From an uncultured Schlesneria sp. (GTDB taxonomy: Bacteria; Planctomycetota; Planctomycetia; Planctomycetales; Planctomycetaceae), in the NCBI GenBank assembly GCA_903858935.1, contig CAIOKO010000234.1:1-64000 (forward strand): a DNA stretch of 64,000 nt, given 5' to 3'. The stretch's first letter is position 1, and every line of letters begins with the position of its first letter. A model generated the notes under the pieces. It did not search any database, was not told where the DNA came from, and saw only the letters and a list, made by a program, of their open reading frames with translations. Positions 37 to 30,963 of this stretch are shown here, piece by piece. Both the position numbers and the translations under genes were made by a program.

Positions 37-126
37 GGACCAGTCCTCCCGTTGTGGCTCTGTGGAAAAAGGATCGAAACGCTCGATCCATTAAACACAA
101 CCCACGTATCCGTGGGCGACTGGTCC
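37..126. repeat. Structured palindromic intergenic element
   Basis: A 9-base inverted repeat (GGACCAGTC at 37-45 and GACTGGTCC at 118-126) encloses two further hairpins: GGATCGA/TCGATCC at 71-89 and CCCACG/CGTGGG at 101-116. The nested, cloverleaf-like plan resembles the other short dispersed palindromic elements in this window, but its sequence differs. No convincing gene is present in bases 1-293. The short open frame across it shows no protein-like features. Confidence 0.4.
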
Positions 127-159
127 TTCCATTATGTCTACAGAAAACAACCGCAATAG

Positions 160-262
160 AGTTGATCTGGTTGACCAACTTGGCCAACTTCAAACCTGGG
201 AAAAGCCTATGAAACAGGGAACTCGACCAACTTCACCAACTTTTTTCGATGCTTCGATGTGA
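160..262 (-). repeat. Single inverted copy of the 161-bp repeat family
   Basis: Read on the reverse strand, this stretch matches the core of the tandem repeat found at 29053-29842. Shared landmarks, in the same order, are the CATCGAAAAAA run, AGTTGG repeats, GAGTTCCCTGTTTCATAGGC and the GAAGTTGGCCAA arm. It shows that the repeat exists outside the array, in the opposite orientation, about 29 kb away. It lies just downstream of the stop of the DUF3299 lipoprotein gene. Confidence 0.65.
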
Positions 263-293: not shown

Positions 294-1124
294 TCATCGG
301 TCGATCACGATGGCCTGATCGATGAGGTAGAGGCCGTAAGGCTTTCCGTCCTGGGCTAGCATCTGGATCTTGAGTGTTCCGACGACGTCGAAGGCGCGTG
401 TGGCCGGGATATAGCTGGTGGTTTTTCCAGGTTTCATGTCGATCTGGACCAGATCATAAACTTTGGGGTCGCGGCCGAAGCAGCAAATCTGATTGTCGCG
501 GGCCAGCACAAACCGTTCGATCCCTTCGGTCTCGTAGGTCGGGTACATGAAGCCGCGAATGCGAACGGTCTTCCCGTTTAAGCCCTTTAACCAGTCTGGC
601 ATCAGATCGACCGCGTTTTCGACGACCGGTTCCATGTTGCAGACTTTCAGCAGATCCAGATCGTCAAACGAAACTCGTAAGGCACCGGTCTTCGGTTCGG
701 TTTGAAATTTCTTGTCTTTGATCAGAATTTCGATCTGATTCGAAGGCTTGGCGGCGGCAGTCTCGGTTGTCGGCAGGCCAGATGGCGGCAAGCCTGAATC
801 GGGCTTTTGATCGCCGGCGGGGATACTCATCAAAGCACGAACGCTGGAGACCACATTAACCGGCACCAGAGCTGATGCTGGTAAGAGCTCGAACTCGTCC
901 ACTCGCTCGTCTGCAGCCAGCTCGGCTTCGAGAGGTTCTGTTTGGGATTCGGTTTCGGTCACGATGACGGCCTGTTTCGCCGCATCCGATGTTTCTGTTG
1001 CGTCGTGCTCACTTGCCGGACGGTAACCGGTGAGATTTGTCCCGCCACAACCAACGAAGAAAGGGGCGACAAGGGTGATGACCAACAGCAACGCCAGTCG
1101 TTTTTCGCGAGATAAACGTGTCAT
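294..1124 (-). CDS. DUF3299-like lipoprotein
   Basis: A predicted exported lipoprotein of 276 residues. The N-terminus has basic residues, a hydrophobic stretch (about residues 10-25) and a lipobox ending VGC before GGT. A low-complexity, acidic, Thr/Glu-rich linker follows (about 35-150). The C-terminal globular part (about 160-276) contains a QICCFGRDP motif and a VVGTLKI strand. The same pattern (DCCFGGQP, VAGTLRI) appears in the neighbour at 1161-1865, so the two are paralogues and probably co-transcribed. The C-terminal part resembles the DUF3299 family, which has no firmly established biochemical role; the adjacent cysteines might bind metal or form a disulphide, but that is inference. 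Start chosen at 1124 because the signal sequence begins there. Confidence 0.75.
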   Translation of the reverse strand: MTRLSREKRLALLLVITLVAPFFVGCGGTNLTGYRPASEHDATETSDAAKQAVIVTETESQTEPLEAELAADERVDEFELLPASALVPVNVVSSVRALMSIPAGDQKPDSGLPPSGLPTTETAAAKPSNQIEILIKDKKFQTEPKTGALRVSFDDLDLLKVCNMEPVVENAVDLMPDWLKGLNGKTVRIRGFMYPTYETEGIERFVLARDNQICCFGRDPKVYDLVQIDMKPGKTTSYIPATRAFDVVGTLKIQMLAQDGKPYGLYLIDQAIVIDR

Positions 1125-27895: not shown

Positions 27896-28093
27896 GAACG
27901 CCTCCCTGCGATCGTAAGGCCAATAGATCAACCGTCAGACTTGTCCTTGATTCGGGAAAAACGGTCAAGACGATTTGGTTTGTGACTGACATCGGGCTTG
28001 CTTCCGCACGAGGCTTCTTTCAGAATGCGGCGGCTAAGGGTTGACCCTGTTTGGGGACAACTATCACACGACTTCAGCCGAACGCCCGATTTC

Positions 28094-29041
28094 ATGTATG
28101 ACGAACTTTGTATTCTGAGTGGACGAGCAAATCCGAAACTTGCGGCTGAAATCGCATCGTATCTGAGCATTGGGCTGGGTTCCGTCACCCTCGATAATTT
28201 TCCCGATGGGGAAATTTCAGTCCGACTTGATACGAATGTGCGTGGTCGCGACGTCTTTCTCGTGCAACCGACGGGCCCGTCGGTAAACGAGAATCTGATG
28301 GAATTGCTGATTTTGATCGACACTTGCAAGCGGGCAAGTGCCGCACGCATCACTGCGGTCATTCCGTACTACGGATACGCGAGACAGGATCGTAAAGATA
28401 TGGGGCGAGTCCCCATTACGGCCAAGCTCGTCGCAAATCTCATTACAAAAGCGGGTGCCGATCGCGTTCTGGCGATGGACTTGCATGCCGCTCAGATTCA
28501 AGGCTTTTTTGACTGTCCCGTGGACCATTTGTACGCGTCACCAATTCTGGATGACTATTTCCGTACACTCAACTTCCCGACGGAAAATCTGGTGATTGTC
28601 AGTCCTGATGAAGGAAGCATCAAGCGTTCGTTGCAACACGTCGAGCATCTTGGTGGCAGTTTCGCGATTGTCGACAAACGTCGATCGAACGCATTTGAGA
28701 CGCGTCAAGAAAATCTGATCGGTGGTCCCATCGAAGGAAAGACCGCGATTATCTTCGACGATATGATTACGACGGCTGGATCAATGGTCGGGGCCGTCAA
28801 GACAGTTGCTCAGTTTGGAGCCAGCAAGATCTATGTGGGAGCCACCCACGCCGTCTTCTGCGGCGAAGCAGTGGAACGACTCAGGGCGGCCCAAATCGTC
28901 GAAATTGTCGTTTCTAACAGTCTTGCGCTTCGTCCCAATCAAATGCTGCCAAACCTTCGAGTCATTTCGGTGGCGCCATTACTTGGCGAAGCAATCCGCC
29001 GAATTCACCGCAACGAATCGGTCAGCTACCTGTTTGACTGA
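28094..29041 (+). CDS. prs: Ribose-phosphate pyrophosphokinase
   Basis: Makes phosphoribosyl pyrophosphate (PRPP) from ribose 5-phosphate and ATP for nucleotide, histidine and tryptophan synthesis. From the ATG at 28094 the protein is 315 residues, the usual length; the longer frame from 27998 adds an unlikely N-terminus. Motifs in order: FPDGEISVRL, PYYGYARQDRK (ATP-binding region), DLHAAQIQGFFD, VDKRR, and the PRPP-binding loop IIFDDMITTAGSM. Twelve bases after its stop codon the 161-bp repeat array begins, so transcription of prs would run into highly structured repeat RNA. Confidence 0.95.
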   Translation: MYDELCILSGRANPKLAAEIASYLSIGLGSVTLDNFPDGEISVRLDTNVRGRDVFLVQPTGPSVNENLMELLILIDTCKRASAARITAVIPYYGYARQDRKDMGRVPITAKLVANLITKAGADRVLAMDLHAAQIQGFFDCPVDHLYASPILDDYFRTLNFPTENLVIVSPDEGSIKRSLQHVEHLGGSFAIVDKRRSNAFETRQENLIGGPIEGKTAIIFDDMITTAGSMVGAVKTVAQFGASKIYVGATHAVFCGEAVERLRAAQIVEIVVSNSLALRPNQMLPNLRVISVAPLLGEAIRRIHRNESVSYLFD

Positions 29042-29052
29042 TGCGAAAAAGT

Positions 29053-29842
29053 CGCAGGGTGGGTCGATCTTCGAGTCCCACCAAAACCTCGCCAAAGCTT
29101 CATCGCAAACACCGAAAAAAAGTTGGTAAAGTTGGCCGAGTTCCTTTTTTCATAGGCTTTTTTGCCGTTTCGAAGTTGGCCAACTTGACCAAGTTCAATC
29201 AGAGTCGTCATCACGCAGGGCGGGTCGATCTTCGAACCCCACCAAAACCTCACCAAAGCTTCATCGAGAACATCGAAAAAAAGTTGGCCAAGTTGGCCAA
29301 GTTCCCTGTTTCATAGGCTTTTTTGCCGTTTCGAAGCTGGCCAACTTGACCAAGTTCAATCAGAGTCGTCATCACGCAGGGCGGGTCGATCTTCGGACCC
29401 CACCAAAACCTCGCCAAAACTTCATCGCGAACATCGAAAAAAAGTTGGCCAAGTTGGCCGAGTTCCTTTTTTCATAGGCTTTTTTGCCGTTTCGAAGTTG
29501 GCCAACTTGACCAAGTTCAATCAGAGTCGACATCACGAAGGATGGGTCGATCTTCGAACCCCACCAAAACCTCGCCAAAACTTCATCGCGAACATCGAAA
29601 AAAGTTGGCCAAGTTGGCCGAGTTCCCTGTTTCATAGGCTTTTTTGCCGTTTCGAAGTTGGCCAACTTGACCAAGTTCAATCAGAATCGCCATCACCCTG
29701 GGTGGGTCGATCTTCGAGGCTCGCAAAAACTTCCCAAAACCATCATCGCAATCATCGAAAAAAAGTTGATCAAGTTGGTAAAGATCCCTGTTTCATAGGT
29801 TTTTTGCAGGATTGAACTTGGCCAACTTGATCAACTTCGTTC
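29053..29842 (+). repeat. 161-bp tandem repeat array, five copies
   Basis: Five head-to-tail copies start at about 29053, 29214, 29375, 29536 and 29696, giving periods of 161, 161, 161 and 160 bases. Each unit starts near CGCAGGGCGGGTCGATCTTC, continues through CACCAAAACCTCGCCAAA, an A-run and AAGTTGGCCAAGTTGGCC, then TTTCATAGGCTTTTTTGCCG and GTTGGCCAACTTGACCAAGTT. The AAGTTGGCC block and the later GGCCAACTTGACCAA block are inverted with respect to each other, so each unit can fold into a stem of about 20 bases. The last copy is the most divergent. The period is not a multiple of three, so the repeats are not protein repeats. They have no conserved short repeat with unique spacers, so this is not a CRISPR array. 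Confidence 0.9.
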
Positions 29843-30558
29843 TTTCCTTTGTGACCTTCGTTTCCTTTTGTTCAAAGATCTTGTTCGCTGTTTCGCTATC
29901 TTCACGTCAGGGAAAAATTTGATCGAAAAGTTCGAGCAAGTTCGCGCGACTTCGACCATTACCCATAATTTATAGGCTTTATGCGGTCATTTTCCATTTT
30001 CTCTCGGTTCAAAGAGTTCACCTGAGTTCGCATGAGTTCGCGCGGCTTCACCCAAGTTCGATTCCGAGACAGCGTGGACAATCTCGATTCCCGGTTTGTT
30101 CGTACCGTCCCAGGCAAAAACTCCGGCTGAATTCTTCACCCATAAGCCTGTTTGTCGCATCAGTCCCATTCCCACATCACACAGCCTCAACCGCACCCGA
30201 CAGTCAAACATCGAACCGCCCTCGGATCGCCTTGTGCTTCAAGCGAACACCGGGGTGATCTGTGTTTAAAATTGTTTCCTAGATGTCAAAGATCAATTGT
30301 CATCGTAACCAGGTGTTGATTTCAGAAATTCCAGGCGAGCCGTCGATGTTCAATCCACGGAGACTTCCAGCCTCGATCACAACCTGCCCATCCAGTTTGA
30401 TGAACCACGCCGAATCCCAGCCCGGGGTCATCCCGCCATCACTGAAATCATCACAAAACAAAAACGGCGACATAAAAATACAAATACGCAAGTCGCTCGT
30501 CAAGGCAAAGATGGCATGCATTCTTAACGTTTGGGAGATGCTCACAAGAATTGGCTTT
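29843..30558. other. Non-coding region beyond the repeat array
   Basis: About 700 bases between the array and the last gene of the RNA-repair operon. It contains several scattered GAGTTCGC/CAAGTTCG words at about 29930-30060 that look like decayed repeat sequence. Two short reverse frames exist (29987-30211, 74 codons; 30300-30545, 81 codons, GTG start). The second starts 13 bases past the stop of the coupled gene upstream and ends in a protein-like LNIDGSPGISEINTWL stretch, but neither has a clear ribosome binding site. I do not call them genes. Confidence 0.4.
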
Positions 30559-30963
30559 TCATCGGATTAATAAAACCCGGAGTTCACCGCATTTATCGTA
30601 GTGGTAAGCCAATTGACCTGGAATGCAACTGATGATTGTTCCCCACCCTGCCAATTCGGTCTGTGAAATCGCCTCCGATAATTCCAATTGGCGGCCATCC
30701 AAGCCCAATGTGGATGTGAGTACATAACAAGACTCTGGTGCCCCATGAGATTTGAGCACACTTACGACGTCAGCTTTTGAAGACAACTGCGTCGCAAACC
30801 GATGATCCAGGTCTCGGCAGTGGTTCAGTTTGTCCAAGATCGTGCATCGGCGCTTGGGGGACGCAAGCGATTCCAGCCATCGTGAGCGACGTTGAGGATT
30901 GAAAAATGCACAAATTGTCGCTTCTTCGCGCGGATGCATTTTCAAAAAAACTTTGGATTTCAT
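30559..30963 (-). CDS. Uncharacterised protein coupled to rtcA
   Basis: A 134-residue, probably cytoplasmic protein with no signal peptide or membrane segment. Its ATG overlaps the TAA stop of rtcA by one base (TAATG), the arrangement of translational coupling, so it is the last gene of the Ro60-rtcB-rtcA operon. Features visible: a basic N-terminal half with FFNPQRRSRWLESLASPKRR and LNHCRDLDHRFA, a central predicted alpha/beta stretch with VVSVLKSHGAPESCYVL, and a C-terminal GTIISCIPGQLAYHY segment. I recognise no family or catalytic motif. Position suggests a role in RNA repair or quality control, for example binding of RNA ends or of Ro60/RtcB, but that is inference from context only. Confidence 0.72.
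   Translation of the reverse strand: MKSKVFLKMHPREEATICAFFNPQRRSRWLESLASPKRRCTILDKLNHCRDLDHRFATQLSSKADVVSVLKSHGAPESCYVLTSTLGLDGRQLELSEAISQTELAGWGTIISCIPGQLAYHYDKCGELRVLLIR

Follow-up and report, generated by a model that had tools for sequence, protein, structure and literature searches.

Tandem repeat array downstream of prs

The window, a 64,000-nucleotide stretch of DNA from an uncultured Schlesneria sp., carries five tandem units of 160-161 bp (A units) that begin 12 bases after the prs stop at 29041. TRF detected this array as the only strong one found (29053-29838; period, 161; 4.9 copies; 90% matches; score, 1206), and a 47-nt core recurs in it at spacings of 161, 161, 160 and 161. The original prediction of a five-copy 161-bp array directly after prs is thereby confirmed. 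The internal inverted pair that it described in each unit is also present: AAGTTGGCC/GGCCAACTT arms occur in every array unit with some substitutions, and 9-bp arm units (AAGTTGGCC) flank the centre TTTCATAGGCTTTT. The array is not CRISPR-like, as had been stated, because whole 161-bp units are homologous (86-100%).

A lone inverted copy had been described near the other end of the window. A single A unit does exist at 170-243, recorded on the minus strand, but it is inverted relative to the window only, given that its orientation to the gene at 294-1124(-) equals that of the array to prs(+). A palindromic CCCACGTATCCGTGGG-type motif was seen by eye near lone or terminal A units (window 90-160, L064 and L067). 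No Rfam family matched the window, a permissive search of 28800-30600 gave a best E-value of 0.58, and no tRNA was found in the window. The window also holds a DUF1501 match, which we take as a hint of Planctomycetota.

In our best reading, the array makes up the distal portion of a polar minus-strand unit of ~1.45 kb that would run from 30552 to ~29053. The second repeat type in this unit (B, 29914-30048) and the conserved modules up to ~30552 lie beyond the original description. The features of the locus are as follows.

27998..29041, plus strand: prs (PF13793/PF14572), the convergent neighbour of the minus-strand unit
29053..29842, minus strand: A-unit array, five 160-161-bp units, each of which reads on the minus strand as a hairpin and then a T-run
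29119-29196, 29280-29356, 29441-29517, 29601-29677 and 29762-29838, minus strand: A-unit cores in the array
29914..30048, minus strand: B unit, 10-bp AGTTCGNNCG-type repeats on either side of a centre, TATAGGCTTTA, that is related to the A centre
30221..30264, minus strand: C hairpin of the leader, with an outer helix that covaries (19 copies)
30281..30296, minus strand: boxA-like element, TTGATCTTTGACATCT
30475..30503, minus strand: putative promoter, -35 TTGACG (30503-30498), 17-bp spacer, -10 TATTTT (30480-30475)
30521..30536, minus strand: operator-like dyad, consensus TTCCAAACGTTAAGAA, with one mismatch near the 5' end in the window copy
170..243: lone A unit, which reads on the plus strand as a hairpin and then a T-run and is directed toward the 3' end of the gene at 294-1124(-)

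Genome-wide family of A and B repeats

The A unit belongs to a genome-wide family of structured repeats, as had been suggested from the window. A blastn search with one unit gave 129 matches in the 7.93-Mb genome (280 contigs), with palindromic arms counted twice and 40 of 91 candidates scored. The core TTTCATAGGCTTTT was found 56 times in the genome at ≤1 mismatch, compared with 7 times for a reversed control, and a covariance model yielded 124 A-type copies (150 candidates scored). On stretches around matches, a biased sample picked for having them, nhmmer identified 83 A elements (strands merged) and 76 B matches. Control stretches (7 x 20 kb) contained no A element, and B occurred in them only at one contig start (L111). 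All 49 arrays were confined to one strand when weak matches were dropped before grouping.

B units consist of 10-bp repeats (AGTTCGATCG) around TCGTAATTCATAGGGTTTT, and these repeats are direct, not inverted. Several A copies have direct instead of inverted 3' arms, and the number of arm units varies among A copies. Because of this variation, RNAalifold recovered only five pairs on the A alignment, and we therefore do not claim that the A units covary. The fold z-score was -2.57 for RNA and only -1.08 for DNA. The repeats might act as DNA, with phased 9-bp and 10-bp repeats binding a nucleoid or partition-type protein and with an incidental hairpin potential. Such a reading would suit the direct B repeats with their helical 10-bp period, the variable number of arm units and the DNA z-score. 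It is nevertheless improbable, given the RNA z-score, the strict polarity of the units behind a conserved promoter and the polar T-runs described below, and it leaves the boxA and the leader hairpin unexplained.

REP/BIME repeats, which occur with RAYT transposases, are hairpin repeats that are scattered between genes and form mixed, oriented clusters. The Schlesneria repeats resemble them in these respects but differ in that they belong to a promoter-led composite. Y1 transposases are present in 15 of 15 genus genomes, nine of which have no A copies, and a REP/RAYT association was not found. By the listed coordinates, no Y1 gene is closer than 5 kb to an array on the shared contigs C82, C211 and C258.

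Operator, promoter and polarity

On the array strand, a near-invariant 16-mer, TTCTTAACGTTTGGAA, follows downstream of the repeats, and two more conserved blocks lie between the array and the 16-mer. On the other strand, the 16-mer reads as the near-palindrome TTCCAAACGTTAAGAA, which is followed 18 nt on by TTGAC and then by TAtTTT (consensus -10, -12 TAtTTT -7). TT[GT]AC is present in 46 of 57 distinct operator copies and absent in 11. The gap from operator to -35 is 18 nt in 34 of the 46 copies, and the distance from -35 to a conserved TGTCG is 31 nt in 34 of 44. Given a conventional start, the dyad is centred near -61.5, the position of a class I activator. A promoter scan of 28900-30700 returned one promoter-like site, the one at the operator, and shuffled sequences averaged 1.4 sites, so that the conservation of the promoter alone carries weight. 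The consensus scan also gave four sites resembling terminators, of which one is on the plus strand, compared with 2.0 in shuffles.

The repeat units are strictly polar with respect to this promoter. A pattern scan for the operator and -35 was performed on one genome per species (84,980 species, among which the window's own records may be missing) and returned 71 stretches, all from three sister MAG assemblies named 'uncultured Schlesneria sp.'. Within 2.5 kb downstream of the operator at these 71 loci, 90 of 90 units (48 A and 42 B) share one orientation, and no repeat unit was found within 2.5 kb upstream. A repeat unit is present at 46 of the 71 loci, and fewer than 700 bases of contig are left at 20 of the 71. 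B is nearer to the promoter than A at all 14 loci that have both. Two operator copies outside the 71, L083:2613 and L168:1516, contradict the orientation relative to nearby A units; both are without a -35. ACAAAATGAAA follows in these two copies, and no clear ORF was seen by eye. The units are best read as the 3' part of opposite-strand transcription units, in the order promoter, B and A.

This reading modifies the proposal that the repeats lie at 3' ends of genes: it is retained for the predicted opposite-strand transcription units but does not apply to same-strand genes overall. Among the 49 arrays, the gene 5' of the array on the A strand is on the same strand in 24 and on the opposite strand in 19, and six have no called gene. 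These counts rule out a same-strand 3'-end model as a general rule. When only genes within 250 bp are considered, 20 of 26 are on the array strand and six are opposite; together with the 12-nt distance from the prs stop, this is what a terminator or mRNA-stabilizing repeat of prs and other same-strand genes would produce. Such a role is very improbable, however, considering the overall counts, the location of the T-runs on the other strand and the prs locus of the sister genome G142, which has no such array.

Leader with boxA and a conserved hairpin

The leader contains a block, TTGATCTTTGACATCTTGG, which in 26 of 46 promoter copies is present within 500 nt of the predicted start, at 111-375 nt past it. 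Its boxA-like element reads TGATCTTTGACA in the unit and TGATCTTTGAAA in the rRNA leader of the sister genome G146, and the boxA core has one substitution in G146. The boxA follows the promoter as it does in rRNA leaders of the genus (G146, TGATCTTTGAAAA; G148, AGATCTTTGAAAA), where the element was found at -256 (TGATCTTTGAAAACA, G146) and -228 (AGATCTTTGAAAACA, G148) of the 16S gene. The 16S gene of the window's genome was not found in its assembly. The rRNA leaders are boxA-bearing untranslated operons that share with the unit a promoter, a boxA and a long untranslated repeated or structured RNA. The boxA core of the unit matches the one in the rRNA leader of its own genus, but the unit has no rRNA. 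CRISPR arrays are reportedly boxA-bearing untranslated operons as well; their repeat-spacer pattern was not found here, the whole 161-bp unit being repeated. For comparison, the gamma-proteobacterial boxA consensus is GYTCTTTAANA (PMC5725501).

The C hairpin was extracted 25 times, and the final alignment was made without L253 and L280. In its outer helix, 91.4% of cells are paired and five of eight pairs are changed on both sides; the inner helix is 68.3% paired. The covariation score of the whole structure was reached in 4 of 500 shuffles. At the same locus in G146, 12 of 200 sites in 30221-30420 are changed, compared with 45 of 204 fourfold sites in rtcA and 61 of 171 in prs (Fisher, 3e-6 and 4e-13, respectively). 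By this comparison, change in the leader is much slower than at synonymous sites, and purifying selection on it is strong. The promoter differs from that of G146 at 2 of 28 positions in the operator and hexamers and at 16 of 34 in the spacers.

Gaps between promoter and boxA are a multiple of three in 22 of 97 cases in the window's clade, and the leader has no coding signature there. A 43-aa ORF that precedes boxA in the window was rejected as a candidate, having no start codon in G146 (by eye) and no coding pattern in the gaps of paralogues. The product in this clade is probably a noncoding RNA.

Operator and repeats in related genomes

The exact 16-mer TTCTTAACGTTTGGAA occurs 34 times in this genome, 25 times in G142, 21 times in G145 and 45 times in G146, and was not found in the remaining 166 of the 170 family genomes. 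The degenerate operator TTCYWAACGTTWRGAA has 36 sites in this genome and is found in 5 of 14 congeners, including G144 (34 sites) and G135 (25 sites). Among the 155 family genomes outside the genus, one, G080, has a single site, making 7 of 170 overall. The G144 dyad is a perfect palindrome, with TTGG at an 18-nt gap in 12 of 14 sites and mostly with TATGTT. When gaps of 15-20 were allowed and the better-scoring strand was used, the top-scoring -35 in G135 was at a gap of 18 for 10 of 12 sites.

The number of A units at the prs locus varies, from five in the window's genome (G000) to at least six in G145 and two in G146, and no A array was found there in G142. Among operator-bearing sisters, the one prs locus examined that is without the element, and could serve as the empty site to look for in the case of a MITE, is that of G142; this locus bears a transposase-like insertion. 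The transposase-like sequence directly follows prs (L209:3771 onward; family by eye). In G145, the prs side and the rtcA side are split between two contig ends, one bearing six A units and the other two complete units and a partial one. In G146, rtcA is ~20 kb from the unit end (L207:4232 to L208:4409, C6), and the break comes immediately behind the operator.

ORFs of G144 contain the A' core in frame. All 14 ORFs chosen, from 24 loci for a common start motif and an open frame, are open. Gaps are a multiple of three in 158 of 180 cases in these ORFs, compared with 7 of 59 in the 5' UTR, and we make the coding claim because gaps stay in frame, dN/dS being only 0.67. The same architecture is protein-coding in G144 on this evidence, so that 'noncoding RNA' is not general. 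The G144 proteins form a dispersed, fast-evolving family (MLELAWPVDVELG... TANRQTLRNRELGQLGQTQ... KRYKTGMFANLANLA; L307, L311, L313, L315, L316, L318, L319, L322, L326-L330 and L334), which in most of the loci retrieved lies behind the palindromic operator. No Pfam family was above cut-off for the two members tested. Rickettsia palindromic elements are palindromic repeats that are read in frame inside ORFs. The G144 repeat resembles them in this respect, but in the window's clade the frame that is open in G144 holds a TGA and the leader has no coding pattern.

A second type of ORF is associated with the repeats. At L092, L094, L100 and L314, AAA_25 ATPase homologues have their ends within an A' or B' repeat or immediately ahead of one. 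The ORF enters the A' hairpin, which its stop codon overlaps, at three loci in two species (L092 and L094 in the window's genome and L314 in G148), and at L100 B' follows the ORF. The best operator candidates before these four ORFs have 5-6 mismatches, which is background, and were rejected. Two of the 12 operator sites fetched from G135 have an AAA_25 ORF behind them. The G135 ORFs, L354:2631-3974(+) and L356:551-2467(-), have weak similarity to phage primase/helicase families.

Could the units instead descend from a family of genes or mobile elements that was formerly autonomous and under operator control, with a primase/helicase-like AAA_25 ATPase at some loci and a different protein in G144? 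The ORF would have been lost in most copies, and the repeats would be leftover ends that were amplified by tandem duplication and have little present use. The AAA_25 ORFs behind operators, those that run into repeats and the varying array at the prs locus are in line with such an origin. However, the strong purifying selection on the leader and the promoter spacing kept in three lineages speak against it, AAA_25 was not matched in the 71 named operator loci, and phage and plasmid collections gave no match. We regard this explanation as rather unlikely.

Function of the A units and a proposed mechanism

What is the function of the A units? Transcription termination, RNA decay control and nucleoid protein binding had been put forward as candidates, and termination would survive best, judging from the polarity of the T-run side. 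An A-run of at least five lies beside the 5' arm of A in 52 of 74 copies, compared with 0 of 74 with a T-run of at least five after the 3' arm; a cruder, fold-based count of Ts gave 15 versus 9 of 74. Tandem intrinsic terminators between convergent genes consist of a hairpin and a T-run that face the 3' end of the neighbour. The A unit resembles them in this arrangement but differs in its 161-bp period, its long loops and its membership in a dispersed family of promoter-led units. The best hairpin of the G148 A copies is located upstream of the T-run. This placement, the direct-arm A copies and the non-inverted B units would all make poor terminators and count against a pure terminator role.

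With modest confidence, we propose that the locus encodes an operator-controlled and probably noncoding transcript in which the A units serve in tandem as terminator-like elements of the 3' end. The 16-bp dyad, with its centre near -61.5, would be bound by a regulator, probably an activator, that helps RNA polymerase to start near 30468. The resulting RNA would contain boxA ~170 nt from its start, and after it the C hairpin, the B unit and the five A units, each a hairpin with a U-run. The boxA may recruit Nus factors and thereby allow the polymerase to pass the untranslated stretch. The tandem A hairpins would function as stacked intrinsic terminators or 3'-end stabilizers and would stop the RNA before the stretch antisense to prs.

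A broader interpretation for the Schlesneria clade can be offered as a tentative possibility. Each genome may contain 20-45 dispersed long RNA genes that are governed by one dyad-binding regulator and carry a leader with a Nus boxA and an array of B and A hairpins that varies. Such genes would follow a CRISPR- or rRNA-like transcription logic, and their noncoding RNA would be derived from operator-controlled protein genes, of which coding versions persist in relatives. No prior description of the family was found in the literature covered, which leaves out most subscription journals. If this interpretation is true, dozens of loci would share a common switch and an antitermination signal and would produce RNAs without a described counterpart, and the regulator as well as the RNA product would be directly testable. 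It would also account for the contigs of these MAG assemblies often ending in such arrays. The repeat family appears to shift between coding and noncoding use inside one genus.
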